The position numbers and the translations under genes were made by a program. A DNA stretch of 29,323 bases from a virus, in IMG/VR virus record IMGVR_UViG_3300027708_000238, positions 1-29,323 of that record. The stretch is one strand, 5' to 3'. This document shows, in pieces, positions 10,680-29,323 of the stretch (its first letter is position 1; each line of letters starts with the position of its first letter). The notes beneath the pieces are model-generated. The model worked only from the letters and a program-made list of their open reading frames with translations. It was not told the origin of the DNA and did no database searches.

Positions 10680-10703
10680 TATTTATGTAAGGCCATATTT
10701 ATA
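10680..10703 (-). promoter_or_regulatory. Late promoter boxes for gp18, first overlapping gp17 stop
   Basis: Exact TATAAATA at 10703-10696 contains the gp17 stop TAA (10701-10699). A second near-match CATAAATA lies at 10687-10680. Both point toward gp18. Two tandem late boxes would fit the high demand for sheath subunits. Confidence 0.6.
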
Positions 10704-12387
10704 GATTCCGCATCATATCTTTCATAAAACCGGAATATACTTCTCCACCATCGGCCACTTCCCATACATCACCATCATAAACCTCTAATCCTGGTCTATC
10801 CACACCAGTTTCGATGATAGGTGCTGGTAAAACTTCTTCATCATATTGATTCATATCTTGCAATTGAATCTGTTTTCTCAAGTCATGGTTAACAATTTCT
10901 CTAAAATATTTCTGTGTGGCAGCCCACGCAAATATAACTAAAGTCATGGCCATGTCATCATTGGCACCTTCTGCGGCCGCAAATGACGTTTTGTGTTGTT
11001 CAAATGTGGTTAATTCAGAGTAAGTATCAAAGTCATTAATTAAAAGTTTATCACCTTCAATCAAAGTTTTAAGGTTTGAACAACCAACTTGCTTTACTTG
11101 AGTGGACATTTTTAGTCCCATTTGAATACCACGAGCAAAACCAGCCGATAATTGTTGTGGTTTTTTGTTACCCGTAAATACTTTTAATAGATTTTCGTAT
11201 TCTAAATCTTCATGAATGAAATCTGCTACCTGTGGATTGTTGTTAATTTCTACCAAAATATAGGCATTATTATAATACCTAGCTGCATTAACAATCACGG
11301 TTGGAAATAGAATTGGTGATATAGAAGAACTGTTATAGGTTGCAACTTGCCTATATGGAGTGGTTGATATATCAAATATTGAGAAAGCGGAAGAATCTAA
11401 ATTCTTACCTTCCGATACATCCACCGTCATTGCATATAAATGGTCTGTTTTTGAATCTTCATTTTCTTTGACAGGATGTTCATAAATCTTCATCATGTCG
11501 TGGTTATCAATAGGATCTATGTATCTTAATTGTTGCAACTTGTAACCAGAAATTAACGTATTTGATGATCCTAAGAATTCGGTTTCAAACTCTTGTGCAA
11601 ACTGACGCTGAGAAGTATTTCGAATTGTTTCTTCTTTCCAAGCCTCATCACGACCTGGTACCATAGACCAATGAATTTGAAAACTCTTATAATTATTTCG
11701 TTTCTCTAATGAATCCATCCATAACTTATAGAATAAATTCATACCATTTGGTGTAGAAACAATAATAATTTTGGAAGTTTTACCAGAAGAAATTACAGGA
11801 TAAACTGAGTTGAAGAATTCGTGTGCAATATTATTTGGTACGAAAGCAAATTCATCTAAAAATACAATGTTAAATGAACCTCCTCGAACCGCACTTGATG
11901 ATGTAGATGCTGCGATAACCTTAGATCCATTTTCAAGTTCTACGTTACCTTTATTCCAAGTAACAACACCTTGTTGTAACCAATGCGGTAAGTTTTCATA
12001 AGCAAGTTGATACTTGGATAAAATATCTCTTGCTAATGAACCTTTATTGGCAAGAACAGCCACATTCTGTTGTTCTGTAAAAATGGTTGCCCATAATAGA
12101 TAACCAACTGTAGTAGTTGTTTTACCAACTTGTCGTGGACATTTTGTAATAACAAAACGATTATCTTTAAAAAGATTTAACATCTCTTTTTGAAAATCCC
12201 ACATATTAAAATTCATCAAACCTTCATCTACGTTGACAATTTTAATATAATTTACACAAAAATAAACTGGATCTTCTGCACATTTAATGTATTCTTTAAC
12301 TTGTTCTTCGGTAAAATTTACCTGAACGCCTACTTTTTTAAGTAAAGGATTATCACGGTAAGAATCAACGTTTTTTTGAACGGACAC
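10699..12387 (-). CDS. gp17: Large terminase subunit gp17
   Basis: A 562-residue packaging motor ATPase and nuclease (T4 gp17 has 610). The ATPase domain shows Walker A CPRQVGKTT at 83-91, Walker B with catalytic Glu in NIVFLDEF at 173-180, and the coupling motif STPNG at 211-215. The RNase H-like nuclease domain shows Asp323 in TVDVSEG, Glu380 in the LVEI strand, and Asp477/Asp478 in GANDDMAMT, so both domains look intact. It starts at GTG 12387, which shares a base with the gp16 TAG stop (TAGTG), implying translational coupling with the small subunit. It acts at the gp20 portal. Confidence 0.98.
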   Translation of the reverse strand: MSVQKNVDSYRDNPLLKKVGVQVNFTEEQVKEYIKCAEDPVYFCVNYIKIVNVDEGLMNFNMWDFQKEMLNLFKDNRFVITKCPRQVGKTTTTVGYLLWATIFTEQQNVAVLANKGSLARDILSKYQLAYENLPHWLQQGVVTWNKGNVELENGSKVIAASTSSSAVRGGSFNIVFLDEFAFVPNNIAHEFFNSVYPVISSGKTSKIIIVSTPNGMNLFYKLWMDSLEKRNNYKSFQIHWSMVPGRDEAWKEETIRNTSQRQFAQEFETEFLGSSNTLISGYKLQQLRYIDPIDNHDMMKIYEHPVKENEDSKTDHLYAMTVDVSEGKNLDSSAFSIFDISTTPYRQVATYNSSSISPILFPTVIVNAARYYNNAYILVEINNNPQVADFIHEDLEYENLLKVFTGNKKPQQLSAGFARGIQMGLKMSTQVKQVGCSNLKTLIEGDKLLINDFDTYSELTTFEQHKTSFAAAEGANDDMAMTLVIFAWAATQKYFREIVNHDLRKQIQLQDMNQYDEEVLPAPIIETGVDRPGLEVYDGDVWEVADGGEVYSGFMKDMMRNL

Positions 12388-12818: not shown

Positions 12819-14222
12819 TTAAGATAGTTTAACGTAACCCCAATATACTGTCTGTGATGATCCGGTACTATTACTAATTCCAAATCTAAACACATTGTTT
12901 GTTGTGCCTGATACAGTAGCAGTTGATATTGCACCTACTGTTCCCACAATTTGATCCGGTATACTTGTGATTGCAATTGGACTTCCACCACCCGTATAAT
13001 TCCAAGCATATTGATTACCCAATACCGGCACATTAGTATTGGTAACAGAAACAGTAGCAATATATGTTATGATTCCATCGGGAATGTTTCCTCTAACCCA
13101 CAATTGGTAAGCTGCATTTGCTGGAACTGTAAATTCGTAAGTGTTTGTACCAGCAGTAATGGTCCAACTACCTGAAGTGAGATTTGCTCCGCTAGCGCCT
13201 TGAACACCAGTAGCACCATTGGTGCCAGAAGGACCGGTTGCACCACTAACGCCAGTAGCACCATTAGTACCTGCTGAACCGGTGGCACCATTAATGCCTG
13301 TACCTGTAGCACCATTAATGCCAGCAGAACCTGTGGCACCAGTAACACCTGAAGCACCCGATACTCCACTAGCACCATTTGTACCATTTGTACCAAAAGG
13401 ACTTAAATCGGTTACATAGATGGCATACTGAGTACCGTTAGTGGCGTATACTGGTAAAACTATAGCATCGTTGGTATTAATTACCCAAGTAGGATGGCCT
13501 GGATCGTCACCTAATGACACATTAGATTGAGGAGTATTCATTAATTTTGTAACAGTATTGGCAGGATCACCAACAGGTACAAAAGTCCAATTTGTATTTC
13601 CAAGACCAATTATTTCATTTATGTAAGCATCTACTACTGAGCCATCTTTTCTAACAGTAAAACCATTTCCATAAGAATTAAGATTAAATTCTCCTAGTGC
13701 TACTGTATAACTGCCTGTAAAACTATCTAGTAATAATAAATTACCAGCACCAATAGTACCTTGTGGTCCAGTAGCACCAGAAACACCAGTTGCGCCTTGT
13801 GTACCTACACCAGTTGCACCATCAATACCTGTAGCACCATTAGTACCCGCTGAGCCTGTGGCGCCATTGGTACCGGCAGAACCTGTAGCGCCATTAACAC
13901 CGGTAGCGCCATTAACACCTGAAGCACCTTGAATACCTGTAGCACCATTAGTACCGGCGGAACCTGTAGCACCAGAAATACCAGTAGCGCCTTGGCCACC
14001 AGTAACACCACTAGCACCTTGAGCACCTGTAGCACCTTGATTACCTTGAATACCAACATGGTCAACATAATATTTTGAAGCCATTGCATGACCGCCACGG
14101 GTTACACCATCATGGATTGTTATTGTGTGGTTTGTTGAATCGATAATAAATTCACCATTAGCTCCAGTAGTATTAGCAACTACCGTATTGGCAAATCTTT
14201 TAAATTGTAATGTTCTTGGCAT
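12819..14222 (-). CDS. Collagen-like fibre protein with Mtd-N-type head domain
   Basis: A 467-residue protein. Residues 1-50 (with [20 protein letters not shown]) resemble the N-terminal domain of tropism-determinant and short-fibre proteins, a small trimeric virion-attachment module. Two collagen-like tracts of G-X-T/A/N triplets follow, at about 58-158 and 277-347, each with one break in the triplet register (GVGTQG; GTGING). A beta-rich domain lies between them (159-276) and another closes the protein (348-467, ending [12 protein letters not shown]). A trimeric fibre or whisker exposed on the virion is the inference. It sits between gp15 and gp16, where T4 has no gene; T4 wac whiskers map just before gp13 instead. 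The start follows the gp15 stop by 1 nt. Confidence 0.85.
13182..13394 (-). repeat. Collagen-like triplet tract 2
   Basis: About 70 residues of the same G-X-Y type as tract 1, with a one-residue break in GTGING. The close sequence similarity to tract 1 suggests slippage or recombination between the two. Confidence 0.9.
13749..14051 (-). repeat. Collagen-like triplet tract 1
   Basis: About 100 residues of G-X-Y triplets, mostly GAT, GTN, GSA and GVN combinations, read as nearly identical 9-nt units (gtagcacca and relatives on the plus strand). One register break occurs in GVGTQG. Confidence 0.9.
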
Positions 14223-14223
14223 T

Positions 14224-15321
14224 TTAAGATCCTAAATCTATTTGGTTTTCTAATTCGACATGCAAATCGTCTATACCAAATACGTTTGTGTTTAAATCAA
14301 CAACTAAAGTATTCAATGATGAAAAAACTGTATCATCAATATTTGGTATTTCTGTTGTAGTCGTGGTATATGTATAGTCAGATGCAGCATTAGCATTAAG
14401 AGGATTTGGTTTAACATCAATATGTACCAAATTTTGTGGTTGAACTTGATAATTTTCGAACACATAATTTGAATTTGATACAACACCAACAATGGGTTCA
14501 GAAGAAACAAAATTACCATTAATGTTTGTTAAATGTAAATTATTGTTGTGCCAATATACAACTTTGGCTGACGCTGTTGAAGTACCGGCAGAATATCCTT
14601 GATATACTATTTCTCCTGTTTGGTATGTTCCTTTTCCACTAGGTACCATATTAAACACAACAGTATCATTTTCAGAAATATTATTTAATATATTAGTAAT
14701 TGAATGTTTAACTAATCCTACATCTGAAATTTTACCAAATACAAATCCTTTAACTGTAAAGTTTAATGTCCAAATAACCATTCTTGTTTCTATATTTGCA
14801 GCTTCACCTTCATATTCAATTTCATGAACGGCAGAATTTAAAATAACAGGAATTTCTTTAACAATACCCATTTCAGGTATCATGTTTAATTTAATTGTAT
14901 AATCTGGTGCAAAAAATGGTAAAATGTGTTCTATAATTTGGCTACCATCTTCAATGTTTCTTACATAGATGTATAAATTAAAATCAAAATTATATGGAAC
15001 AGGATTGTATTGTGCTACTGAGCCTCTTGTGGTTTGTGCAAAAGCTTTTGTATTTGTATTTTGTTTTCTTGTTGCATCATATGTCATACCGGACATTTCA
15101 AAAGACATTCTAGGTAAAGTAGTTTGAACTTTTTTATCTAAATTTGGATCACCTTCTAAACGCCTAACATACATTTCTTTTGTTGCATATACAAGTGGCA
15201 CTAAAAATCTTTGTGCTTCGGTCAAATCTGGATTGTAACGAACCAAGGTAATATCTTTAAATAAATTACCAAAACCAACTACAAGTTTTCTAATGGCACG
15301 GTTATATGTTGGTAAAGACAT
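14224..15321 (-). CDS. gp15: gp15-like tail sheath stabilizer / tail terminator
   Basis: A 365-residue protein; T4 gp15 has 272 residues and forms the hexameric ring that caps the sheath and joins tail to head. Residues about 1-205 follow the T4 pattern: [34 protein letters not shown], a [16 protein letters not shown] region, [20 protein letters not shown] and the [13 protein letters not shown] segment. The C-terminal about 160 residues are additional. They include a module (about 231-291, nt 14631-14449) with the pattern GEIVYQG, then [10 protein letters not shown], that also occurs in gp14, followed by a low-complexity T-rich linker. It overlaps the gp14 stop by 1 nt (TAATG). Confidence 0.9.
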
Positions 15322-16202
15322 TATATTGTTCCAAATGGATTTATTTCGGAGAAATCGGTAATGGCATCAGCGCTTTCTGCAATATGTTTATTATCATAGG
15401 TTTCAGAAAAAGAATTATCTAATAGAGGATCAAATGTCGCCAACATATATTGTGCTTTGCCTTGAGAACCATAAATGAGTTGATTGTTAATAAATTCACC
15501 AGCAATATTAGTTACCGTCAACGTGTTGTTCATTGGCATCCAAGATTGTACTACAGCCACACACGTTGCATTTGCTTCGGTGGTATCTGCTGATTGATAT
15601 ACTATTTCTTTATTAACAAATGCTCCAACGCCGGCACCAATATTTAAATCTAAAGAATAAGCATTATTAGTAACAACAAGATCAATTTCACTAACACCAG
15701 TATTAATAATTTCTTGTGAATACTTAAATTTCTCCAAACTGAGCTCATAAAAATATGGTTGTTTTCTTGCTAATGTATGAAAATCTTTATCTTGATCGGC
15801 AAAAGTAATTTCGTATAATTCACCCGTACCATTTAAAAATGGAACGTAAATTAAATCACCTTCTCTTGGTCGGTTAAAATCTACTTGTGGTACCCTTTGT
15901 TGAAAAGTTCTTCGAGAAATAATAACTTTAACATTGTTTTTAATTTCTAAACCAAATTTAGAAAAGAATTCTTTTTGACCAAGGTAGTCCATAGAATCAG
16001 ACAAATACAATTCAATTGGAAATGCCGATTCAAATCGTTTAACCGGATCTTCACCATATAATAAATCTCGGGCTTGATTATTTTCATTAATTAAATAATA
16101 AGCTTCAAAACCCATAATTTTTATGGATTCAACTAACAAATCTTCATAAAGTCTTTGTTCTGGTTTTGAACCGTAGTTATTAAAATGTGATGATACTGGC
16201 AT
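15321..16202 (-). CDS. gp14: Neck protein gp14-like
   Basis: A 293-residue neck protein (T4 gp14 has 256); gp14 joins gp13 and gp15 to complete the head-tail connector. Recognisable features are the N-terminal SSHFNNYGSKPEQRLYEDLL with IKIMGFEAYY, then FFSKFGLEIKNNVKVIISRR near 79-98, and REGDLIYVPFLNGTGELYEI near 113-132. Residues about 185-260 (nt 15650-15423) form an inserted module with NKEIVYQS and LTVTNIAGEFINNQLIYG, closely parallel to one in gp15. The C-terminal SEINPFGTI is typical. Start ATG 16202 follows gp13 by 1 nt. Confidence 0.9.
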   Translation of the reverse strand: MPVSSHFNNYGSKPEQRLYEDLLVESIKIMGFEAYYLINENNQARDLLYGEDPVKRFESAFPIELYLSDSMDYLGQKEFFSKFGLEIKNNVKVIISRRTFQQRVPQVDFNRPREGDLIYVPFLNGTGELYEITFADQDKDFHTLARKQPYFYELSLEKFKYSQEIINTGVSEIDLVVTNNAYSLDLNIGAGVGAFVNKEIVYQSADTTEANATCVAVVQSWMPMNNTLTVTNIAGEFINNQLIYGSQGKAQYMLATFDPLLDNSFSETYDNKHIAESADAITDFSEINPFGTI

Positions 16203-16203
16203 A

Positions 16204-16977
16204 TTAGTTTAACATCCATTCTAATGGTGCACCATATTCGTTCTGCATTTGCTCTTCTAAAGCTTTAATTTCTGCAAAAGATTCATCATATATTTTATCG
16301 CCATTTAATGTTACACCACCTGGCAATTGTAAATTATTAAACTTTTTAAGATTGGATCCCCAATTGCGTTTAATTAAAGCTGTAGTATATTCTTTTAACC
16401 AACGGTCATTCCATACTTTATCATAATAAGCTGGATCAATATTGGCATAGGCTTCGGCAACCACTACTTGACCTGCAGGAGAGCTATTACTACCCCAAGA
16501 CCAATCAATATACAACCTTTGAGTGTGTCTTTGGAATCGAATAGGAACTTCTCCTGTAAACAATAATTCTAGTGAACGTAGGTGTTGTGATGTTAAAGTA
16601 TAATTAATGTATGATGCAGAAGTAAAATCGTAAAGTTCATTTAATCTAAGTTGATATCTTAAGTCAAACATATTGACGTTGGCCTGTGAATCTTGAATAG
16701 GAAAGATTCTGGTAATACCAATAATTTCTAATGGATTACCATCAGCATCTTGAGTTGCGGAAAGGTCAATATATTTTTGATCAATATCAGCTTGTTGAAT
16801 TGCTTTAATATAATAAACTTTTTGCATACCATCAAAATGATAGTCCTGCCAGTATTGTAAAGCGTCATCGATACGGTCTTCCACTTGATCATCATCTACG
16901 TTGATATCGATAACGGGAAAACCTAGTCTACGGAGGCAGTAATTTTTAAAGTCCGTTCTATTAGTAATTGTTGCCAT
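16204..16977 (-). CDS. gp13: Neck protein gp13-like
   Basis: A 257-residue head-completion protein (T4 gp13 has 309). It attaches to the portal after packaging and, with gp14, makes the neck. Landmarks are FKNYCLRRLGFPVIDINVDD near 10-29, then DQVEDRIDDALQYWQDYHFDG near 30-50 (with DYHF strongly conserved), IEDWSWG-type SWGSN near 181-185, and KVWNDRWLKEYTTALIKRNW near 205-224 with GSNLKKF and LPGGVTLNGDKI. The Shine-Dalgarno GAGGA lies 5 nt before ATG 16977. It begins a run of tightly joined virion genes after the glycosyltransferase cluster. Confidence 0.93.
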   Translation of the reverse strand: MATITNRTDFKNYCLRRLGFPVIDINVDDDQVEDRIDDALQYWQDYHFDGMQKVYYIKAIQQADIDQKYIDLSATQDADGNPLEIIGITRIFPIQDSQANVNMFDLRYQLRLNELYDFTSASYINYTLTSQHLRSLELLFTGEVPIRFQRHTQRLYIDWSWGSNSSPAGQVVVAEAYANIDPAYYDKVWNDRWLKEYTTALIKRNWGSNLKKFNNLQLPGGVTLNGDKIYDESFAEIKALEEQMQNEYGAPLEWMLN

Positions 16978-17017: not shown

Positions 17018-17794
17018 TTATTTGGTGTACTGTCCCCACCATGTAGTCCAATCGATATATGGATCCATCTGAGTATCAAATTGCATATGTAATGCCAAAC
17101 TTTGAATTGGACTAAACCGTAACGCATGGTTTTTCCAAATTTGACAGATAGTATTACCCTCATGGGTATGTTCTTCTGGTGTACTATAGTCAGGATTGTA
17201 TTCCGTGGCAAGTTTTTCAAATACAGGCCAATGGTCAACGAGTACCTGTGGTCGTAACATGAAAGTATTGGTTGTCCAGACACCAGATTTCCAATGCCTT
17301 TTCGAACCATGAACCACAAAACATGGTTCCATGTGTGGTGGATAGTAATCATCCGGCATATCAAACGGATAAATTACAATTTCCTGACCAGATTTATCTT
17401 TAAATAATTGATAAGAATCTAACATTTCCACCAAAGCAGTATTACAATGTAGGTAATCATCTTCTACCGAATATACTAAATCCGCTTCGGAATCACGGCA
17501 AAATTCAAACTGTTTTAATGCTGAATAGTTATAACCAGGTTCTGCCATGTTATAAATTTCATGTGGCCATTTAGATTTTTCAAACAAAGCATAGATACCT
17601 TGTTTTAATGTATCGGTACTATGGTCGTCCAGAATTTTAAAATTAACTTCATGGCTTTCTACCATGTTGGCCGCATTAATGAGTGATGATAAACAACCTA
17701 AAATTAAAGTTGTTTTTTCCATACCGCAATATCTTTCACGGTCCAAGTGTACATTACCTAAGTCGTGTGTTCTTAAAATGATTTCTAATTTCAT
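17018..17794 (-). CDS. GT-A-type glycosyltransferase, paralogue 1
   Basis: A 258-residue putative sugar transferase of the GT-A fold. It opens with MKLEIILRTHD, has an acidic DDH at 56-58 and the metal/nucleotide-sugar-type motif VEDDYLH at 110-116, then a KRHWKSG segment and a C-terminal SPIQSLALHMQF with DPYIDWTTWW. The same four landmarks occur in the two genes just upstream, so the three are tandem paralogues. It overlaps the preceding gene by 4 nt (ATGA). Substrate and product cannot be inferred; candidates are virion fibre proteins or a host-surface glycan. No signal peptide or membrane segment is visible, so it should act in the cytoplasm. Confidence 0.75.
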   Translation of the reverse strand: MKLEIILRTHDLGNVHLDRERYCGMEKTTLILGCLSSLINAANMVESHEVNFKILDDHSTDTLKQGIYALFEKSKWPHEIYNMAEPGYNYSALKQFEFCRDSEADLVYSVEDDYLHCNTALVEMLDSYQLFKDKSGQEIVIYPFDMPDDYYPPHMEPCFVVHGSKRHWKSGVWTTNTFMLRPQVLVDHWPVFEKLATEYNPDYSTPEEHTHEGNTICQIWKNHALRFSPIQSLALHMQFDTQMDPYIDWTTWWGQYTK

Positions 17795-18591
17795 GTTATC
17801 CTATCCCATAAATCTCTCCACCCTAAATGAGTGGTTCTTATTGTTGCCGGTTCATTAAATGAAAGATGATACGCCACAGATGGTATTGGACTAAACACCT
17901 TTACATGACCTGTACCTTCTTCATAGTTCTCATATAACTTGTTTATAAACTGATCTTCTGCCGCATCAGGAAAGGTCAAAGCCAATCCTTTAAATACTTC
18001 AAAATTATCTTTAAAGAAACTTTGATGTGCAAATATGGTATTGGCGGTGTGACGAACTTGCCTCCAATACCTAACACCATCATATAAAAGAACAGTAAGA
18101 TACTCTCTATCTATATCATATCTAAATGCACAGTCATAAGGATATAAAGCAATTGTATTTGGATATTTTTGTGTTAAATAATTATAAGCAACCAACATAC
18201 TGTTTAAAGCATTTTCTTCGTGCAAATAATCATCTTCTACCGAATATACCATATCTTTGGACTCAGCACACATTTCAAATTGCTTGAGTGCCGATTGTTT
18301 AAATCCTTTAGTTTCTAAACTGATCAACTCAACTTCTTTATTACACTTACTCAACACTTCTCTTAAATCTACCAAGAAAGATTCGATACTATTATCATCC
18401 AATACGGTTAATTTAATATCTTCAACGACCACACAGTTATTAATGGCATTAACCAAAGACTTGGCACACTTTAGGACCATACCTTTCCTGTCATCGCCAC
18501 ATATTCTTGGTAACTGTTTTACTGTTGGTTGATTAGTGCCTTGTTTAGGTACTTCTTTCTCACAAGTTCTTAGTATAACATGAAGCTTCAT
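17791..18591 (-). CDS. GT-A-type glycosyltransferase, paralogue 2
   Basis: A 266-residue paralogue of its neighbours. It shares the N-terminal MKLHVILRT, the acidic DDN at 65-67 (Asn where the others have His), VEDDYLH at 118-124, the RYWRQVRHTANT segment, and a C-terminal FSPIPSVAYHLSF. The final DPYIDW motif of the other two is replaced by a diverged GWRDLW. A 23-nt stretch over the YSVEDDY coding region is identical to that in the next gene (18227-18249 and 17454-17476). It overlaps both neighbours by 4 nt (ATGA junctions), so the cluster is translationally coupled. Confidence 0.75.
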   Translation of the reverse strand: MKLHVILRTCEKEVPKQGTNQPTVKQLPRICGDDRKGMVLKCAKSLVNAINNCVVVEDIKLTVLDDNSIESFLVDLREVLSKCNKEVELISLETKGFKQSALKQFEMCAESKDMVYSVEDDYLHEENALNSMLVAYNYLTQKYPNTIALYPYDCAFRYDIDREYLTVLLYDGVRYWRQVRHTANTIFAHQSFFKDNFEVFKGLALTFPDAAEDQFINKLYENYEEGTGHVKVFSPIPSVAYHLSFNEPATIRTTHLGWRDLWDRIT

Positions 18592-20009
18592 GCAATAATC
18601 AATTCTGGATCACACATGGCGTCTAACGGAGGTTCTCCTTTGAATAGTATTGCCACCACTTCACCATCTTCCGATTTAACCTGAGCATCAAAACCTAAAG
18701 CATTTAATATCTGTGTCATAGAATGTTTGGTGAATCCAGTTTTGTGTAACATGCCTTCACCCCAAGCTTCTGTAAACTCACGATGGCCATAAATCATATC
18801 GATAACGGCAACAGGACCAGCTGAACTTTCATATACAATATCAAGTAATCCATCTTCAATTTTATCTGCAATAGAACCAATATCTGGTACTCTGATAACG
18901 GCAAAGCCACCTTCTTTTAATACTCTTACCATACTACTAAAGATTTTTGGTAGGTCATGGAAGTAATTATGTTCTACTACATGAGAAGCCCAAATTGCAT
19001 CCACAGATTCGTTGGGTATACCTTCAAAATCAATGATAGAAGATTTCATGTGTGCTGTATCATTTTCATAAGCATCAACACGAATCTCTTTCCAATCTAA
19101 AAAATATTTTGATTGATCCTCAAGTTTTGTTTTACCACAACCAATGTTAACCACAATTTTTTTATCTGTTGTAAAGAGGTCTTGGTTATCATTTCGTGCA
19201 AAACTGGTAACATCATCAGCATGTTTATCCCACCAAGATTTCCAATCGATATACGGATCTTTTTCATTCTCACCTTGAAAATGTAATGCTAAAGATGGTA
19301 TTGGCGACATTACCACATAATCTCTTTCTTGCCATAATCTATTTACCGATTCATCTTCCAGTTTCGGGTCATGAGGATCACCTGTAGAAATCTTGTCAAA
19401 CAGGTCCCATTCGTTCACCATGACTTCGTGAGTTGTCATAAAGGTGCAAGGTACCTGATAAGTTTGCCGCCAATGGCGATCTGGTCCTTGAACAATACGA
19501 ACCGGTACCACATTATGATCCCAATACCGATATGGATCATTGTATGGTAACAATGAAAGTGGCTTTGGAAACTTGGGTTGATATTGTTGCCATTGTAATA
19601 CTAATTGGTAAAAACATTCTTCATCAAAAAGGTAATCATCTTGTGCCTGAAACACCAAATCTTTACCATCATCACGCATATTTTCATAACACTCACGCAA
19701 TGATGCCATCAAACCAAAACCTTCAATGTGTTTTAGATTGGTTGTAAAATTAGCCAATGAAAGATTATCTTTTAGTATTTGAATACCGTTTTCATCAGAA
19801 TGGTCATCAAATACATTCAGTTTAAATTTCCAAGTTGGTAATTTATCTTGAGCGTAGTTGATTGATTTAATTAAAGACCGAGTGCAACGTTTTACGACTT
19901 CTGTTTTATCGTTACACCCGTATCGTTCAAATTTAAATCCTTCGTATGGCACATAAGTATCTTGACTATTTGATTTATTATGTGTTTGTAAAGCAATCAA
20001 AAATTCCAT
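18588..20009 (-). CDS. Glycosyltransferase-methyltransferase fusion
   Basis: A 473-residue two-domain protein. Residues about 1-265 match the two following GT-A paralogues: DDH at 68-70, QDDY at 123-126 (Gln replacing Glu), DRHWRQTYQVP near 177-187, and SPIPSLALHFQ with DPYIDWKSWW at the end. Residues about 280-460 are a SAM-dependent class I methyltransferase with motif I VVNIGCGK (286-293), an acidic strand-2 residue in RVDAYE, then IWASHVVEH (339-347) and LKEGGFAVIRVPD. Together they could transfer and then methylate one sugar. The start lies 2 nt after the upstream gene stop. The substrate is unknown. Confidence 0.8.
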   Translation of the reverse strand: MEFLIALQTHNKSNSQDTYVPYEGFKFERYGCNDKTEVVKRCTRSLIKSINYAQDKLPTWKFKLNVFDDHSDENGIQILKDNLSLANFTTNLKHIEGFGLMASLRECYENMRDDGKDLVFQAQDDYLFDEECFYQLVLQWQQYQPKFPKPLSLLPYNDPYRYWDHNVVPVRIVQGPDRHWRQTYQVPCTFMTTHEVMVNEWDLFDKISTGDPHDPKLEDESVNRLWQERDYVVMSPIPSLALHFQGENEKDPYIDWKSWWDKHADDVTSFARNDNQDLFTTDKKIVVNIGCGKTKLEDQSKYFLDWKEIRVDAYENDTAHMKSSIIDFEGIPNESVDAIWASHVVEHNYFHDLPKIFSSMVRVLKEGGFAVIRVPDIGSIADKIEDGLLDIVYESSAGPVAVIDMIYGHREFTEAWGEGMLHKTGFTKHSMTQILNALGFDAQVKSEDGEVVAILFKGEPPLDAMCDPELIIA

Positions 20010-20011
20010 TA

Positions 20012-21787
20012 TTAACTCTTTTCAGATTTAGGTGCTGTTAAAGCTGCCTTTCGTTTATCATCACGGAGTTTAATGGTATTTTTAAGCTCTTGAACTGTGT
20101 AACGTGGAGGCTTGTGAACTTGTAACAACATGATGGTTGCTTCTGCCACATTAGATTGTGTGTGTAAAGCAAACTCTAATTGTTCTTCGGTGATTTCTTT
20201 TGCTTTTAACATTTCTATCCACTTACCAACATAGGTATACTTAACATCACACACATCAATATCAATACCCAATTCAATTGCCAAGGTACTGTCTGATCGG
20301 CCAATCTCCATACCATCAATTAAACTCTTTTGATTAAACAAAGCAAATGTTCCAGGAGTTAATGGACGCTTGTGTGTTGGATCATCCCATGCATGGTCTG
20401 AACGATGGTGTGGGAATTGTACTTCCCATACAGCACCATTCTCTGATACACGATACATTTCTTTAATAATATCTACAATTGAGTGTGTATCATTACCTAA
20501 ATGTTCTAAAATATCTTTAGCAACAATGTGTTGGAACTCATCATCTTGGAATGGCCATGGTACTGCCTGTAGGTCCACAATTTGATCTGGTTCAACATTT
20601 TCTGAAGCATCCACATTAAGGAAACCATCCATCTTAAAGAAGCCACAACCCATATTCATCTTCTTAGGTTCTTTATCGTGACTTGGATGTTGAATTGGTT
20701 TTAATTTAAATTTCTTTTCAAAATCTTTGTAGAGTTTTTGAAATGTTCCGTTCCATGTTTTGGCTTCTTGTTGACGATATAGTGTAACACAATCATAGTA
20801 AGGAGATTTGGTACTCTGTGGTGCACCAAATGTCCATGTATGATATGGTAAAATTGGTGTAAGGATCCAAGTTTCTTTACCGAGTGCTGCAGCCGCATGA
20901 GCAATACTGGTACAAGAAGTAACAACAATATCAAGATTCTCCATTGCACCTAATGTATCTTCCCAAGAAACTAATTGATGTTGTAGATCAATAATGTTCT
21001 CTGGTAAATCAATAATGTTTTGATCACGCTGTAATGAATACAACTGAACTTCATCATACTTACCAAGTTCTGTTAAGAAGCCAGGAGGGAATCTACGGAA
21101 CTGTTGATGTTCAAATTTAGGATTACCAGCCCAACGAATACCAACTTTAAGTTTATCAGATTTAATAATATCTTTCCACTCTTCAATTTTTTCTGGTAAA
21201 GCATGTAGATATTTTTTATTAGGAAAATCTTTGAATGTATTACCTGATACCCAGCCTGCTGAGAAACCTGGTACCCAATAATCATGAGCAACTAAATGGC
21301 TTTGATTTCGTAGAATAACACCATCACATCCTTCAATACGTTCAAATACTGATACCACTTCAGGCGAAGCAGCCAAATAAACTTTATCTGCACCTAGTTT
21401 TTTGAATGATTGTACAAAACGTGCATGAATAATTTCGTCACCAAATCCACCCTCTAAAGAAATGATAATAGATTTACCTTTAATATCATCTTTATCTGGA
21501 TTAAAAATGGGAGCATTTGTTTTGAGTGGAGGAGAACCGTAAACATTAATGAATCGTCCTGATTCCAACATTTGGCAACCTTCTTTATAATTGCCATCTT
21601 GTAACATGAACCAGCCACGATTGAATGTGTGTCGTGTCCACATTTCAGGATTACCTAATTCACCTTTGGTGTCTGGTATGCCTTCTGGTCCTAATTTCTG
21701 TAACTTATCAGATATTTGGCGAGCTTTAACAAACTCACCTTTTAACATCAATTGTAATTCACTATCAATATCATGCATCGAATTCAT
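20012..21787 (-). CDS. Heptosyltransferase-like glycosyltransferase fused to methyltransferase
   Basis: A 591-residue protein of three parts. Residues about 1-95 are helical and TPR-like (a MLQDGNYKEGCQMLESGRF segment). Residues about 105-330 resemble a GT-B, glycosyltransferase-family-9-type domain: ISLEGGFGDEIIHARFVQSF, VGIRWAGNPKFEHQQFRRFP near 215-234, and VVTSCTSIAHAAAALGKETW near 288-307. Residues about 376-500 are a SAM methyltransferase with NMGCGFFKMDGFLNVD (378-393), VPWPFQDDEFQHIVAKDILE (409-428) and FPHHRSDHAWDDPTHKRPL. The fusion order matches the neighbouring gene in principle but the sugar-transfer domain is of a different fold. AGGAG lies before ATG 21787, 58 nt after the giant RCC1 gene; that spacer holds a TATAAT-like hexamer (21825-21820) without a -35. 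Confidence 0.8.
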   Translation of the reverse strand: MNSMHDIDSELQLMLKGEFVKARQISDKLQKLGPEGIPDTKGELGNPEMWTRHTFNRGWFMLQDGNYKEGCQMLESGRFINVYGSPPLKTNAPIFNPDKDDIKGKSIIISLEGGFGDEIIHARFVQSFKKLGADKVYLAASPEVVSVFERIEGCDGVILRNQSHLVAHDYWVPGFSAGWVSGNTFKDFPNKKYLHALPEKIEEWKDIIKSDKLKVGIRWAGNPKFEHQQFRRFPPGFLTELGKYDEVQLYSLQRDQNIIDLPENIIDLQHQLVSWEDTLGAMENLDIVVTSCTSIAHAAAALGKETWILTPILPYHTWTFGAPQSTKSPYYDCVTLYRQQEAKTWNGTFQKLYKDFEKKFKLKPIQHPSHDKEPKKMNMGCGFFKMDGFLNVDASENVEPDQIVDLQAVPWPFQDDEFQHIVAKDILEHLGNDTHSIVDIIKEMYRVSENGAVWEVQFPHHRSDHAWDDPTHKRPLTPGTFALFNQKSLIDGMEIGRSDSTLAIELGIDIDVCDVKYTYVGKWIEMLKAKEITEEQLEFALHTQSNVAEATIMLLQVHKPPRYTVQELKNTIKLRDDKRKAALTAPKSEKS

Positions 21788-21845: not shown

Positions 21846-24800
21846 TTATCTTCTAAAGTTACTTCCAGCACCACCAGAGAATAAGTTGGCGGTATAACCT
21901 GTGGCTAACTGTGTTACTAATACCGGACTAGATCGTGTAACAGTTGTACCATCGCCATATTGACCTACAGCATTATTACCCCAAGCATACAGATAATTAT
22001 TAGTTTCATTATCGGTAGTGATGGCAATCGTGGTGTTATTACCTAATGCAACATCAATAATATTTAAATTGGATAATGCTATATTTACAATATCTGGTGT
22101 GGATCTATTTCCGTAGGCATTAAAACCAAAAGCATTATTGGTATTTGTGCCCCATGCGTATAAAGAATCTTCAGAATTGATGCCAAAGTATATGCCATTG
22201 AGTAAATTAAAATCTTTCCATCCGGTAGCTTTTGCATTTTTAATATTTGTTAAATATCCTCCAACTTGTACCGGTGATGATCTATTAATTTTTGTACCAT
22301 CACCCACAGCACCATAAGTGGTATTATAACCCCATCCATACAAATCACCAACAGAATTAATTGCTAATACATTTTCATCAGCACTTACTGCTGACCATGA
22401 ACTTGTACCAATTTTAACCGGTGAATATTTATCAATTGTAGTACCATCACCAAATGAGCCCCAAAAATTATAACCCCACGCATACAAAGCTCCGCTAGCA
22501 TCAATGGCTAATGTAGGATAAATACTAATACTTACCGTTGACCATGAAGATGTACCAATTTGTACCGGTGAAGATTTATCAATTTTTGTTCCATCACCTA
22601 AGTTGCCTGATGCACCATAACCCCATGTATATAAAGCACCGCTAGCATCAATGGCGGCATTCATGTTGTAATAAGAACTTATTATTGACCAAGAGCTTGT
22701 ACCAATTTTTAATGTTGTTGATCTATTGGTTGTAGTGCCATCACCCAATTGCCCGTTAATATTTTGACCCCATGTATATAAAGCACCAGCAGTAGTAATA
22801 GCGGCAGTATGAGAAACACCCGCTGATATAAATGTCCACGAAGAATAATTAAATGCACCAGTTAATGTTAATCCTAATTGTGTAGGAGAAGATCTGCTGT
22901 TGCCATCTGGAATGCCCAATTGACCATAACCGCCACTCGCATCACCTCCACCAAATGCAAATAAATTGCCATCAATTTGAAGAGCTAATGTATGATAACC
23001 GCCCGAAGCAACATTTGTCCATGAGTTGGATCCAATTTTTACTGGTGATGATCTATTAAATGTAGTACTATCACCAGTAGCTTGGCCATAAGCATTATAA
23101 CCCCATCCATATAATTCACCAGTAGCAGTGATAGCATTTGTACGGTAAGTACCTGTTGAACTTATTTTAGACCATGAACTTGTACCAATTTTAACCGGTG
23201 AAGATTTATCAATTGTAGTACCATCACCTAATTGGCCAGAATTATTATAACCCCATGTATATAAAGCACCAGTAGAATCAATAGCAGCACCACCAGCATT
23301 CATACCTGCGCTTACCGTTGTCCATGATCCTGTACCAAGTTTGACTGGAGAAGATTTATTAATTGTAGTACCATCACCAAGAGCACCATTACTATTAGAA
23401 CCCCAAGCATACAAAGCACCTGTGGTATCAATAGCGGCCATGTATACGTTGCCAGCACTCACTAAGGACCATGACTTTGATCCAATTTTAACTGGTGATG
23501 ATTTATTAATTGTAGTGCCATCACCTAATGAACCGGTACCATTATAACCCCATGCATACAAAGCACCATTAATATCAATAGCCGCAGCAATAAATCTACC
23601 AACTGAAACTTTTGTCCATAAAGATGTACCAATTTGTACCGGTGATGATTTGGAAACTACTGTACCATCACCTAATTGACCATAATCATTTCGACCCCAT
23701 GTAAACAATCGGCCAGTAATATCAATAGCCGAAGTGATGTTATAACCTGAACTCACAAATAACCATGAACTGTTACCAATTTTTGTTGGTGTGCGTCCAG
23801 AAACGGTGGTACCATCACCTAATTCGCCATCAGCATTATAACCCCATGTGTATAAACCTCCATCATTTGAAATTGCTGCTGAATTATAATCATTTGCCGA
23901 AATAAGAGACCAAGAAGCATAAGTTCTAGCAACAACTTGTACAGGAGATGATTTGTTAACTGTTGTATTATCACCTAATTGGCCGGTAGCATTACCACCC
24001 CAAGCATACAAAGCACCTGTAGAATCAATAGCAACGGTATGATAATCACCAGCTGCAACTTTTGACCATGAGCTTGTACCAATTTTTACTGGAGAAGAAG
24101 TTGAAACTGTAGTGCCATCACCTAATTGACCATATACATTACCACCCCATGCGTATAATGATCCATCAGATTTAATAGCCATTGTTCGATTAAGCCTGTT
24201 AGATACATTTTTCCATAATGAACCAATTAAAAATTGTGGCCAAGTCTTATCAATTGTAGTACCATCACCTAATTGGCCTAGTGCATTATAACCCCATGTC
24301 CAAAGTGAATTATCATCACTAATAGCAAATGATGCATAACGTGATCCAGCAGAAATTGATTTCCAAGAAGTGAATTTTCTAGAATTAGTAACAATTACTG
24401 GTGTTAATCTATTGCTAGCGGTAAATCCATCGGTGCCAGTAATAAGTGCGGTGTTATCATTTAAAATTATTGATGTTGTAACACCTTTAGCTATCACTTT
24501 GTTAATATTATAACCATATGCACTTCCACCAACATCAATTAATACTGGTGAGATACTACTAGATCCATTATTATTACCTAATTGTCCTGATGCACCATAA
24601 CCCCATGTATACAATGTATTTGCAGTAGTAATACCAGCAGTATGAGAACCACCAGCACTTACTGTTGACCACGAGCTTGAACCAATTTGTATTGGTGATA
24701 TTTTAGAAACTGCTGTACCATCACCTAATTGACCTAAAGTACCAAAACCCCATGCATACAAAGCACCGGCGGTAGTAATAGCGGCAGTATGTGAATCACC

Positions 24801-27800
24801 AGCAGATACAATTGACCATGAAGAATAAATGTTTAATGCTTCGTTTGCTGCAGCAACCAATACCGGAGAAGATTTAGAAACTACTGTAATATCACCTAGT
24901 TGACCTGATGTACCAAGGCCCCAAACATATGCGTTGTTGGCAGTAGTTATACCAGCAGTGTGTGAACCACCAGCAGATACGGCTGTCCATGAAGAATAAA
25001 TTAGTGAACTTTTATATGGTCCAAATCTAAATGCTGTGGATTTATTAACTGTTGTACCATCACCTAATTGGCCAGTAGAATTACCACCCCATGTGTATAA
25101 AACACCAGTAGTGTCAATAGCAGCCATATGTGAACCACCAGCTGATAAGGATGTCCAAGAAATGATTGGTGCAATTGAATTTGATACCCAAACAAATACA
25201 GGAGAAGATTTAGAAACTGTTGTACCATCACCTATTGAACCGCTATTTCCAATGCCCCATGCATATAAATCTCCATTACTAAGAATACCTCCCGAATTTA
25301 AACCAGCACCAACACCAATTGCTGACCATGAAGAAGTACCAATTTGTATTGGTGAAGATTTATTAATTGTAGTACCATCACCAAGAGCACCATTACTATT
25401 AGAACCCCAAGCATACAAAGCACCGGCGGTAGTAATAGCGGCCATATAAAAGTTATTAGTGGCTATTTTTGTCCATGAACTTGATCCAATTTTAACTGGT
25501 GAAGATTTATCAACTGTAGTACCATCACCTATAAAGCCATAAACATTATTGAATCCCCATGTGTATAAAGCACCAGTGCTGTCAATAGCTCCTGCACTAC
25601 CTCGATCTCCAATGTTTATCATTAACCATGAAGAAGATCCAATTTTAACTGGCGAGGATTTATCAATTGTAGTACCATCACCTAATAAGCCAGCAGTACC
25701 TTGACCCCATACGTAAAGAGCACCAGTTGTGGTAATACCTGCTGAATTAAAATATCCACATCCAACTGTAGTCCATGAACTTGTACCAATTTTAACTGGC
25801 GAGGATTTATTAATTGTTGTACCATCACCTAATTGTCCTTGACTATTATAACCCCATGTATATAAAGCACCAGTAATATCAATAGCGGTTGCATGGTTAG
25901 TACCATTAGTGGATACAAACAACCAAGAAGAAGAACCAATTTTAACTGGTGATGATTTATTAATTGTGGTACCATCACCTAATCCACCATATGGATTCCA
26001 GCCCCATGTATACAAAGCACCAGTAATATCAATGCCTGCGGCGGAGTTTTGACCAGCACTTATTTTAGACCATGAGCTTGTACCAATTTTTACTGGTGAT
26101 GATTTATTAACTGTAGTACCATCACCTAATTGGCCAATTTGATTCCTACCCCATGCGTAAAGAGCTCCAGTAGAATCAATAGCTACCACATATGTATCAC
26201 CAACACTTATTTGTGTCCATGATCCTATTGGTGCAGTAACAACAGTTTGTACAGGAGTAGATTTATTAATTGTAGTACCATCACCTAATTGACCAGAAGC
26301 ATTACCACCCCAAGCATATAAAGCACCAGTAGTTAAAACACCAGCAGTATGAGAAGCACCAGCTGATACGGCTGTCCATGAAGAATAAATTGGTGTTTCT
26401 TGTACTAATACTTGCACTGATGAAGATTTATTAACCGTAGTACCATCACCTAATTGGCCTTTAGAATTATCACCCCATGTGTATAAAAAGTTATTACTAT
26501 CAATAGCTACAACATTTGATTGATTAGCAATTACTACTGTCCATGAACTTGAACCAATTTTACTTGGTACTAATTTATTAATTGTAGTACCATCACCCAG
26601 TCGGCCGGCAGAATTAACACCCCATGTATACAAATCACCAGTAGAAGTGATAGCTGCTGCAAATGACCAACCTACGGATACGGATGTCCAAGATAATCCA
26701 GATGAAATATTAACCGGTGTTGATTTATCAATTGTAGTACCATCACCTAATTGACCAAAAACATTTTGGCCCCATGCATATAAAACACCGGTATTAGTAA
26801 TACCAGTTACAACTGGATTACCGTGACATACAAATGTCCATGAAAGTGAACCAATTTTAACTGGTGAAGATTTAGCAATTGTAGTACCATCACCTAATTG
26901 ACCCTTATTATTATAACCCCACACATATAGAGCACCAGTAATATCAATGGCTGCTGTACCAAATGTACCAGCAGCCACTTTTGACCAAGAAGAAGTTCCA
27001 ATTTTAACTGGTGAAGATTTAGCAATTGTAGTACCATCACCTAATCCACCAAAAGTATTATAACCCCATGTATATAAAGCACCTGTAGTATCGATAGCCG
27101 CATTATGTAGATAACCAACACTCAATACACTCCATGAATTTGTACCAATTTTAACAGGAGAAGATTTATCAATTGTAGTACCATCACCAATTTGTCCGTT
27201 AGCATTATAACCCCATGTATATAAAGCACCTGTAGTATCAATACCTCCTGACGCAGTGGAAGCGGTTCCAACTATACTCCATGAATTCGTACCAATTTTA
27301 ACAGGAGAAGATTTATCAATTGTAGTACCATCACCTAGTTGACCTTCATTACCTCGACCCCATGTATATAAAGAAAAATCAGTTAATTTAATAGCTGCTC
27401 CATGCAAACCGTTTCCGGCAGCCGAAACTTGTTTCCATTGGTTTATTAATGCACTAAAAATAGTTGGTGGTACAGGAGTAGACCTATTAATTGTAGCGCC
27501 GTCACCAATTTGATTAGTAGCATTACCACCCCAAGCATATAAAGCACGAGTAGTTAAAACACCAGCAGTATGAGAAAGACCGGCTGATACGGCTGTCCAT
27601 GAAGAATACGTATTTAAATCTGAATTAATAATTGCGGGTAATATTGTTGGAACAGATCTTGAGCCAGATGAACCGGTTATATTAAGACCTAAAGCACCAT
27701 AATATGTATTGTCACCCATTACATATACATTACCATCAATTCCAAGAGCTAATGAATGAAAACCTGCTGTTCCAACAGCTGACCATGAAGAAGATCCAAT

Positions 27801-29323
27801 TTTTACTGGTGATGATTTATTAACTGTTGTACCATCACCTAATTGACCATATTGATTATAACCCCATGCATATAACGCACCTGTGGAATCAATTGCAACC
27901 ACTTGAGAAAGACCCGAACTTATTTTGGACCATGAACTTGAACCAATTTTAACGGGTGATGATTTGTTAACTGTTGTATTATCACCTAATTGGCCAACAT
28001 TATTTTGACCCCATGTATATAAAGCACCAGTAGAAGTAATTCCCATTGCATTTGAACATGCACTAGTTACAAATGACCATGAAGAGGATCCAATTTTGAC
28101 TGGTGATGATTTATCAATTGTAGTGCCATCACCTAGTGCGCCACCAGAATTGCCACCCCATGCATATAAAGCACCAGTATTATCAATACCAAATGCTGCG
28201 TTAAATCCTGCACGATCTATACTTACCATGTTCCAAGATTTGGTACCAATTTTTACTGGTGATGATTTATTAACTGTAGTACCATCACCTAATTGACCTA
28301 AAGAATTATTACCCCATGCATACAAAGCACCAATATTATCAATGGCTAAGGTACAAGCAAATCCAGATGCAATTTTTGTCCATAATTTAGTACCAATTTG
28401 AATTGGTGAATTTTTATTAACTGTAGTACCATCACCTAATTGGCCTTGAACATTCCTACCCCATGCCCATAATTGGCCAACAGAATCAATAGCAGTAGTT
28501 TGAGCGTAACCCATAGTTACAATTGACCATGATTTATTTCCAATTTTAGTTGGTGCAGACTTAGTAGAATTTGTGCCATCACCTAATGGGCCAAAAGAAT
28601 TTTCACCCCATGTGTATAAAGTTCCTGTGGTTGAAATGATTGCTGATTGATAATCGTAAGAACCATTAACAAAAGCCCAAGAAGTATTTGGACCTAACAA
28701 TGATGCAACTTGAACCGGTGATGATTTATTAATCGTTGTACCATCACCTAATTGGCTAGATGTATTGAGACCCCATGCATACAAAGCACCAGTAGTATCA
28801 ATAGCAGTTGTGTGTGTTGCACCAGCTGATACGGATGTCCATGAATTTGTACCAATTTTAACAGGTGAAGATTTAGAAGTTGCTGTACCATCACCCAATT
28901 GACCAAAATCATTTCTACCCCACGCATATAAACCACCATTAATATCAATAGCAGCTACATGTGAATTACCAGCTGATATGGATGTCCATGAACTTGATCC
29001 AATTTTTACTGGTATTGATTTGCTAGTTGATGTATTATCACCCAATTGATATGAAGTACCTCGACCCCATGTATACAAAGCACCGGTAGTGGTAATACCA
29101 GCAGTCATTGTACCGTCAGCACTAGCTACAATTTGTTTAAAAGAATAATAACCACCTACAAGAGGAATTTGTGTTGGTGTACTATAATATTCTAGGCCGG
29201 TAACATATCCAACTTGACCATATAGATTATAACCCCATGCATATAAAACACCATCTGTTGTAGTGCCTGTTGTATGAAATGTACCGGCACTTATTGATGT
29301 CCACGATGATGAACCAATTTTAA
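21846..29323 (-). CDS. Giant RCC1-repeat protein, probable fibre or adhesin (5' end outside window)
   Basis: At least 2,490 codons. The frame is open past ATG 29108 to the window edge and the extra part also encodes RCC1 repeats, so that ATG is internal and the true start lies outside. Nearly the whole protein is about 48 units of about 51 residues with the pattern SSWTxVSAG, then GALYAWGxNxxGQLGDGTT, then INKSSPVKIG. RCC1 repeats build seven-bladed beta-propellers. Long divergent linkers recur at eight-unit spacing (see findings). One unit (about 24373-24505) has lost the WG core, and the last three (21846-22260) diverge, ending GGAGSNFRR. No membrane segment is seen in the visible part. The position before gp13, where T4-like phages keep fibre genes, suggests a host-contact fibre; this is inference. 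Confidence 0.88.
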   Translation of the reverse strand, partial: KIGSSSWTSISAGTFHTTGTTTDGVLYAWGYNLYGQVGYVTGLEYYSTPTQIPLVGGYYSFKQIVASADGTMTAGITTTGALYTWGRGTSYQLGDNTSTSKSIPVKIGSSSWTSISAGNSHVAAIDINGGLYAWGRNDFGQLGDGTATSKSSPVKIGTNSWTSVSAGATHTTAIDTTGALYAWGLNTSSQLGDGTTINKSSPVQVASLLGPNTSWAFVNGSYDYQSAIISTTGTLYTWGENSFGPLGDGTNSTKSAPTKIGNKSWSIVTMGYAQTTAIDSVGQLWAWGRNVQGQLGDGTTVNKNSPIQIGTKLWTKIASGFACTLAIDNIGALYAWGNNSLGQLGDGTTVNKSSPVKIGTKSWNMVSIDRAGFNAAFGIDNTGALYAWGGNSGGALGDGTTIDKSSPVKIGSSSWSFVTSACSNAMGITSTGALYTWGQNNVGQLGDNTTVNKSSPVKIGSSSWSKISSGLSQVVAIDSTGALYAWGYNQYGQLGDGTTVNKSSPVKIGSSSWSAVGTAGFHSLALGIDGNVYVMGDNTYYGALGLNITGSSGSRSVPTILPAIINSDLNTYSSWTAVSAGLSHTAGVLTTRALYAWGGNATNQIGDGATINRSTPVPPTIFSALINQWKQVSAAGNGLHGAAIKLTDFSLYTWGRGNEGQLGDGTTIDKSSPVKIGTNSWSIVGTASTASGGIDTTGALYTWGYNANGQIGDGTTIDKSSPVKIGTNSWSVLSVGYLHNAAIDTTGALYTWGYNTFGGLGDGTTIAKSSPVKIGTSSWSKVAAGTFGTAAIDITGALYVWGYNNKGQLGDGTTIAKSSPVKIGSLSWTFVCHGNPVVTGITNTGVLYAWGQNVFGQLGDGTTIDKSTPVNISSGLSWTSVSVGWSFAAAITSTGDLYTWGVNSAGRLGDGTTINKLVPSKIGSSSWTVVIANQSNVVAIDSNNFLYTWGDNSKGQLGDGTTVNKSSSVQVLVQETPIYSSWTAVSAGASHTAGVLTTGALYAWGGNASGQLGDGTTINKSTPVQTVVTAPIGSWTQISVGDTYVVAIDSTGALYAWGRNQIGQLGDGTTVNKSSPVKIGTSSWSKISAGQNSAAGIDITGALYTWGWNPYGGLGDGTTINKSSPVKIGSSSWLFVSTNGTNHATAIDITGALYTWGYNSQGQLGDGTTINKSSPVKIGTSSWTTVGCGYFNSAGITTTGALYVWGQGTAGLLGDGTTIDKSSPVKIGSSSWLMINIGDRGSAGAIDSTGALYTWGFNNVYGFIGDGTTVDKSSPVKIGSSSWTKIATNNFYMAAITTAGALYAWGSNSNGALGDGTTINKSSPIQIGTSSWSAIGVGAGLNSGGILSNGDLYAWGIGNSGSIGDGTTVSKSSPVFVWVSNSIAPIISWTSLSAGGSHMAAIDTTGVLYTWGGNSTGQLGDGTTVNKSTAFRFGPYKSSLIYSSWTAVSAGGSHTAGITTANNAYVWGLGTSGQLGDITVVSKSSPVLVAAANEALNIYSSWSIVSAGDSHTAAITTAGALYAWGFGTLGQLGDGTAVSKISPIQIGSSSWSTVSAGGSHTAGITTANTLYTWGYGASGQLGNNNGSSSISPVLIDVGGSAYGYNINKVIAKGVTTSIILNDNTALITGTDGFTASNRLTPVIVTNSRKFTSWKSISAGSRYASFAISDDNSLWTWGYNALGQLGDGTTIDKTWPQFLIGSLWKNVSNRLNRTMAIKSDGSLYAWGGNVYGQLGDGTTVSTSSPVKIGTSSWSKVAAGDYHTVAIDSTGALYAWGGNATGQLGDNTTVNKSSPVQVVARTYASWSLISANDYNSAAISNDGGLYTWGYNADGELGDGTTVSGRTPTKIGNSSWLFVSSGYNITSAIDITGRLFTWGRNDYGQLGDGTVVSKSSPVQIGTSLWTKVSVGRFIAAAIDINGALYAWGYNGTGSLGDGTTINKSSPVKIGSKSWSLVSAGNVYMAAIDTTGALYAWGSNSNGALGDGTTINKSSPVKLGTGSWTTVSAGMNAGGAAIDSTGALYTWGYNNSGQLGDGTTIDKSSPVKIGTSSWSKISSTGTYRTNAITATGELYGWGYNAYGQATGDSTTFNRSSPVKIGSNSWTNVASGGYHTLALQIDGNLFAFGGGDASGGYGQLGIPDGNSRSSPTQLGLTLTGAFNYSSWTFISAGVSHTAAITTAGALYTWGQNINGQLGDGTTTNRSTTLKIGTSSWSIISSYYNMNAAIDASGALYTWGYGASGNLGDGTKIDKSSPVQIGTSSWSTVSISIYPTLAIDASGALYAWGYNFWGSFGDGTTIDKYSPVKIGTSSWSAVSADENVLAINSVGDLYGWGYNTTYGAVGDGTKINRSSPVQVGGYLTNIKNAKATGWKDFNLLNGIYFGINSEDSLYAWGTNTNNAFGFNAYGNRSTPDIVNIALSNLNIIDVALGNNTTIAITTDNETNNYLYAWGNNAVGQYGDGTTVTRSSPVLVTQLATGYTANLFSGGAGSNFRR
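23350..23420 (-). repeat. 71-nt identical direct repeat (second copy 25354-25424)
   Basis: Both copies encode the same LYAWGSNSNGALGDGTTINK blade core and are identical over 71 nt including synonymous positions, 2,004 nt (about 13 units) apart. Recent duplication or gene conversion inside the array is the simplest explanation. Confidence 0.9.
26301..26387 (-). repeat. 87-nt near-identical direct repeat (second copy 27522-27608)
   Basis: The two stretches align without gaps over 87 nt with 4 mismatches, offset by 1,221 nt (407 codons, eight RCC1 units). Both encode the same unit type, preceded by the long linker ending in YSSWTAVSAG and carrying SHTAGVLTT, which marks the super-repeat. Confidence 0.85.

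Follow-up and report, generated by a model that had tools for sequence, protein, structure and literature searches.

What a T4-type phage could do with a very long protein built almost wholly of RCC1 repeats is the question raised by the window, a stretch of 29,323 nucleotides from the IMG/VR virus record IMGVR_UViG_3300027708_000238. A single open frame of 2,491 codons (21846..29321, minus strand) occupies one end of it and runs past the window end, so that 2,491 aa of the product are visible and the true start lies outside. Using Pfam, this frame gave 41 passing stretches of RCC1 (PF00415) with 1216.6 bits against a cut-off of 21.7, which places it in the RCC1 family; WD40_RLD matched with E = 0, and the best PHROG of the protein is phrog_4219. 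RCC1 units fill nearly the entire visible protein, and no other Pfam domain was accepted. A weak pP_pnuc_2 match below the Pfam cut-off was treated as chance. Bacterial sequences that match the array are scattered across many phyla, at 24-38% identity.

The genomic setting is that of a T4-type phage. By Pfam the window encodes UvsY, prohead protease, neck protein and tail sheath stabiliser, PHROGs assigns a head-tail adaptor, and the capsid protein is nearest to those of T4-like phages of Methylophilales, Pelagibacter and Synechococcus (62-64% identity). The head-tail adaptor, neck protein and tail sheath stabiliser genes lie at 14224..16977 (minus strand; Pfam and PHROGs). The array sits upstream of the neck genes, with a four-gene cassette intervening (17018..21787, minus strand), and its far side is outside the window. 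Two genes of the cassette have methyltransferase matches, namely a significant domain in 18588-20009 and a PHROG match, weak in Pfam, in 20012-21787; the other cassette genes received no assignment. The immediate neighbours of the RCC1 gene in the window are methyltransferase-type genes, with no fibre gene directly adjoining. A collagen-like fibre protein is encoded at 12819-14222 (minus strand), between the tail sheath stabiliser gene and the gene preceding a terminase-like frame (10699-12387).

Using the 20012-21787 gene as the query against viral contigs, we found a single near relative, IMGVR_UViG_3300027969_000063 (105.5 kb), which is 96% identical in that gene. It carries a complete RCC1 ortholog of 2,701 aa at the same place as the window array and, directly upstream of it, a second RCC1 gene of 4,228 aa (L100 1201-13893, minus strand), with two Laminin_G_3-type (LamG lectin) domains inserted between blades. 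pP_pnuc_2 scored above the cut-off in the 2,701-aa ortholog (32.8 vs 25 bits), over a stretch of RCC1 units. A further giant array, at least 3,260 aa long, is present in a third contig, L105.

The units were parsed with a cyclic blade profile seeded with 75 regular units (consensus WSKVSAGNSHTAAIDTTGALYAWGYNTSGQLGDGTTVNKSSPVKIG). The 2,491-aa frame yielded 48 RCC1 units on the minus strand, in agreement with the giant array described by an earlier sequence-only reading, whose unit numbers are raised by one here. Linker length was taken as the distance between the conserved proline and the tryptophan that follows it, a regular linker having 8 residues and a long one 11 or more; both the 11-residue cut-off and the leaving out of LamG stretches were our choices. 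Long linkers follow units 4, 11, 12, 19, 20, 27, 28, 29, 31, 32, 35, 42, 46 and 47, and an earlier linker list also counted unit 1, which is followed by a degenerate linker at the N-terminal end. The sequence-only reading had named nine long linkers (after units 4, 12, 20 and 28, and after 11, 19, 27, 35 and 42), every one of which is present, and its blocks 5-11, 13-19, 21-27 and 36-42 each comprise seven units. All on the minus strand, the first block, units 5-11 (27600..28679), is flanked by the long linkers after units 4 and 11, and boundary unit 12 (27438..27599) has a long linker on each side and 82% identity to unit 20. Block 2 (units 13-19, 26379..27437) and block 3 (units 21-27, 25158..26219), defined by linker positions and the blade parse, are followed by boundary units 20 (26220..26378) and 28 (24990..25157), whose places are kept in the ortholog as units 13 and 21, respectively. 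Units 29-35 (23913..24989) also number seven and are irregular, with extra long linkers after units 29, 31 and 32 and a degenerate unit 32. Linker positions and the blade parse give a further seven-unit block, units 36-42 (22839..23912), and the blade parse gives the C-terminal units 43-48 with the tail SGGAGSNFRR (21846..22838).

The long linkers had been taken to follow a period of eight units. This period is clean for units 4-28 only, and five long linkers (after units 29, 31, 32, 46 and 47) had been missed. Because these additional linkers exist, the region 28-35 is irregular and the two eight-step series are a selection. With all long linkers counted, the window protein has 6 linker pairs at lag 8, which is not significant (P 0.12, earlier linker list with unit 1 counted), and no lag stands out as a super-period in the autocorrelation of unit similarity. 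Duplication of eight-unit blocks was considered as the source of the period and rejected, as units eight apart (58% identity) resemble each other no more than units at other lags do. Recent block duplication is also opposed by the exact DNA repeats, of which the longest in the array has 71 nt and lies between units 13 apart. As a rule of the family the eight-unit period fails, since the ortholog retains only the 20-27-28-29 landmarks (13-20-21-22 there).

The spacing that recurs is seven. In the window protein, the ortholog and the 4,228-aa protein together, a gap of 7 between successive long linkers was observed 8 times vs 1.4 expected under random placement (P 5e-5); a gap of 8 was never seen in these three giant proteins, and no spacing other than 7 was enriched. 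As a spacing of seven was suggested by the window protein, the figure for the two relatives alone is the fairer test (4 vs 0.96 expected, P 0.009). Four consecutive gaps of exactly seven occur in the window protein (P 1e-4, earlier linker list with unit 1 counted). The 4,228-aa protein also shows linker spacings other than seven, and the ortholog has 52 units, no multiple of seven. From the sequence evidence, the array is likely to form a series of seven-blade rings, with one extra unit between some of them. The sequence-only reading had proposed a string of propellers with single boundary blades; seven as the quantum is supported by linker spacing, relatives and the boundary subclass described below, and the single boundary blades are restricted to units 12, 20 and 28. 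Among the other giant RCC1 arrays, L075 has irregular (long or shortened) units at a spacing of four, and L105 has large insertions, with long or shortened units at other spacings.

The same linkers could instead be read as marking eight-bladed rings, each made of seven full blades and a hybrid of one boundary unit's C-D half and the next one's A-B half. Each boundary unit would then close one ring and open the next, with no spare blade. This arrangement accounts for both linker series in units 4-28 without remainder, and the ends of single-ring phage relatives suggest closure by C-D plus A-B halves. Most of their open reading frames start with a C-D half and finish with an A-B half, the pattern that a last blade stitched together from the two ends would leave. 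However, complete single-ring phage RCC1 frames mostly have seven units (several have six, including L087 and L090), the later array is spaced 7-7 (28, 35, 42), and between successive long linkers of the three giant proteins gap eight is absent and seven is enriched; we therefore regard eight-bladed rings as unlikely. The two-ring relatives L078 and BUCT-ZZ01 have fourteen units, and the L082 array is the same as that of L078 by length and unit pattern.

The units at the block boundaries resemble one another more than regular units do. The A-B halves of units 12, 20, 28, 29, 30 and 43 are 65% alike vs 41% for regular units, a value reached in 0 of 20,000 draws, and units 4, 12, 20, 28 and 35 are 67% alike vs 56% (P 0.0009); these groups were picked after inspection, so both P values are optimistic. 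Units 20, 27, 28 and 29 have their best match at the colinear place in the ortholog (rank first of 52), whereas for units 21-26 the colinear place is not the best match (rank 4-24). It follows from this difference that boundary units are conserved and interior blades turn over. Taken together, the comparisons support the view that the boundary units form a sequence subclass of their own.

A further explanation is that the spacing is loose, with rings of mixed size or a continuous ribbon of blades in which long linkers would be neutral insertions. Such an arrangement would suit the irregular region 28-35, the other spacings in L075 and the 4,228-aa protein, and an AlphaFold model that took about nine units as one body. 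It sits poorly with the enrichment of gap 7 alone and with a conserved subclass of boundary units, and we consider it quite improbable.

Two AlphaFold models were obtained. Model 1 (units 12-29, 7 alignment rows) was poor, with a pLDDT of 47, and was set aside. Model 2 (units 20 to 29, that is, nine units plus an A-B half, with 21 aligned sequences) reached a pLDDT of 85 and a pTM of 0.72. Its best structural matches are RCC1-family chains (Z up to 30), with BLIP-II among the matches; it differs from seven-bladed RCC1 structures by an rmsd of about 5 Å over about 320 residues, and in Foldseek the TM score by query was 0.41-0.51 for RCC1 chains down to rank 45. We tentatively read model 2 as a ring larger than seven blades, because residues from both model ends align to single rings. 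The sequence-only reading had looked to structure prediction for closed seven-blade rings; model 2 is not one, and its ring size may follow the construct length. With repeat proteins there is a risk that every unit of a construct is closed into one body, and this prediction probably did so; by itself it lends no support to the seven-blade reading.

Turning to the blades, variation is concentrated in the loops. Among 29 ungapped units, variability is highest in columns 8, 28, 10, 27, 3 and 25, five of which lie in the A-B and C-D loops. By the general meander topology of propeller blades, these two loops lie on one face of the propeller. At scaffold positions such as G29, T35 and P42 the protein hardly varies, and the variation there is mainly at synonymous sites.

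The array also diverges faster than its neighbouring genes, as looked for in a tail fibre or receptor-binding protein. The flanking DNA, 8.5 kb downstream, is ~86% identical between the window and the near relative, and identity between the array protein and its ortholog is about 39-74% per 100 columns, mostly ~50-60%. The C-terminal ~100 aa of the array (21846..22148, minus strand) are 93% identical to the ortholog; usual tail fibres differ in this respect, as the conserved end of the window array is the C-terminus. The abrupt step in identity at 21846-22148 (minus strand), from 93% to about 50-60%, resembles a recombination edge.

In some relatives the RCC1 genes lie beside fibre genes. The gene order is tail fibre, fibre assembly, RCC1 in L082, and baseplate wedge, tail fibre, fibre assembly, RCC1 in cyanophage BUCT-ZZ01, so that in both the fibre and fibre-assembly genes are directly upstream, as in a tail-fibre region. 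In S-SRM01, the RCC1 gene comes directly after a gene annotated as the long tail fibre distal subunit. Pseudomonas phage PollyC has its RCC1 repeats in the second gene before the holin, after an internal virion protein, and this RCC1 protein has a T7-type tail-fibre N-terminal domain (E 6.7e-5, slightly below the Pfam cut-off). In the 2,701-aa ortholog no recognised virion-attachment domain was found by Pfam, and the N-terminus of the window protein is outside the window.

We propose that the gene product would be a very long tail-associated adhesin. It would string together about six or more RCC1-type beta-propellers, mostly of seven blades, connected by longer linkers and at three places by one extra unit. 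Its blades would combine a fixed scaffold with strongly varying A-B and C-D loop residues on the same face, and the chain could thereby offer many different binding faces and make many contacts with host surface molecules. We think it probable that the protein is such a tail adhesin, a chain of mostly seven-blade RCC1 propellers with variable binding faces. More tentatively, with slightly less than even confidence, it may be a modular, multivalent receptor-binding chain in which each propeller has its own variable face, interior blades turn over and boundary units stay fixed. The near relative's version, held with the same reserve, would comprise about 20 kb of tandem RCC1 genes (2,701 and 4,228 aa), with some 120 or more blades and two LamG domains.

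A rival proposal, made in jumbo-phage papers from the parallel with eukaryotic RCC1, is that phage RCC1 proteins condense DNA or put it in order within the capsid; the binding of RCC1 to nucleosomes or Ran is a eukaryotic function. phAPEC6 encodes eleven RCC1-like proteins, which were suggested to order DNA, and several proteins annotated for DNA condensation are in its virions (PMC7247149). Mass spectrometry found three phrog_4219 proteins in virions of coliphage W70, with a similar suggestion (PMC11370258), and Cronobacter phage GAP32 has a virion RCC1 protein (PMC5259590). The virion RCC1 proteins of these three phages are about 30-43 kDa each, and the authors suggest DNA condensing or ordering (PMC11370258, PMC7247149, PMC5259590). 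W70 and phAPEC6 have several copies, and those of W70 share phrog_4219 with the window protein; by analogy with these W70 members, the window protein may also be part of the virion. Against a condensing role, the RCC1 genes of relatives come after fibre and fibre-assembly genes, PollyC joins RCC1 to a T7-type fibre N-terminal domain (below the Pfam cut-off), LamG domains are present in the near relative's 4,228-aa protein, and the arrays of near relatives vary strongly. Because of the gene order in relatives, the variability and the LamG domains, we judge a tail adhesin likelier than DNA ordering for the window protein, and DNA condensation improbable.

The window array has the same repeat, blade motif and length as the seven-bladed RCC1, UVR8 and HERC RCC1-like domains (PF00415, PF25390); these form single or few separate rings, whereas the window array has 48 visible units in one chain. 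S-SRM01, BUCT-ZZ01 and the IMG/VR relatives have the same repeat, near fibre genes in L082, BUCT-ZZ01 and S-SRM01, but with one or two rings per gene and often several nearby genes rather than a fused giant chain. Pseudomonas phages PollyC and Littlefix have RCC1 repeats in a tail protein; these repeats are divergent, the phages belong to other viral families and PollyC has the T7-type N-terminal domain. BLIP-II is an RCC1-like propeller that binds its protein target tightly, but it is a single small bacterial inhibitor. RCC1 proteins of >1,000 residues from uncultured phages are present in BFVD. RCC1 in phage virions and tail proteins is already known, and the sequence-only reading's statement that no described phage fibre has such a design has to be narrowed accordingly (PollyC, Littlefix, W70, phAPEC6), but no paper on a multi-propeller chain this large was found. 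The literature searched gave no papers on RCC1 chains in phage fibres, and within that scope three things are new: the quantum of seven units, the conservation of the boundary units, and how large the giant chains are and how they are arranged in tandem. Phage RCC1 proteins are currently annotated as 'regulator of chromosome condensation', with DNA packing as the guess, and the evidence here points instead to tail-borne host binding. If this is true, the present name is wrong for a large class of phage proteins, and modular, fast-changing adhesins would reach an extreme in the giant chains.

Genes for sulfotransferase, APS-kinase-like, FkbM methyltransferase, TPR, 2OG-Fe(II) oxygenase and glycosyltransferase proteins occur in relatives beside the RCC1 genes or between RCC1 and the neck gene (L075 6155-9771, L084 7307-9769, L087 4280-5713 and L090 7629-17507). 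They are possibly a cassette that modifies fibre or host glycans.
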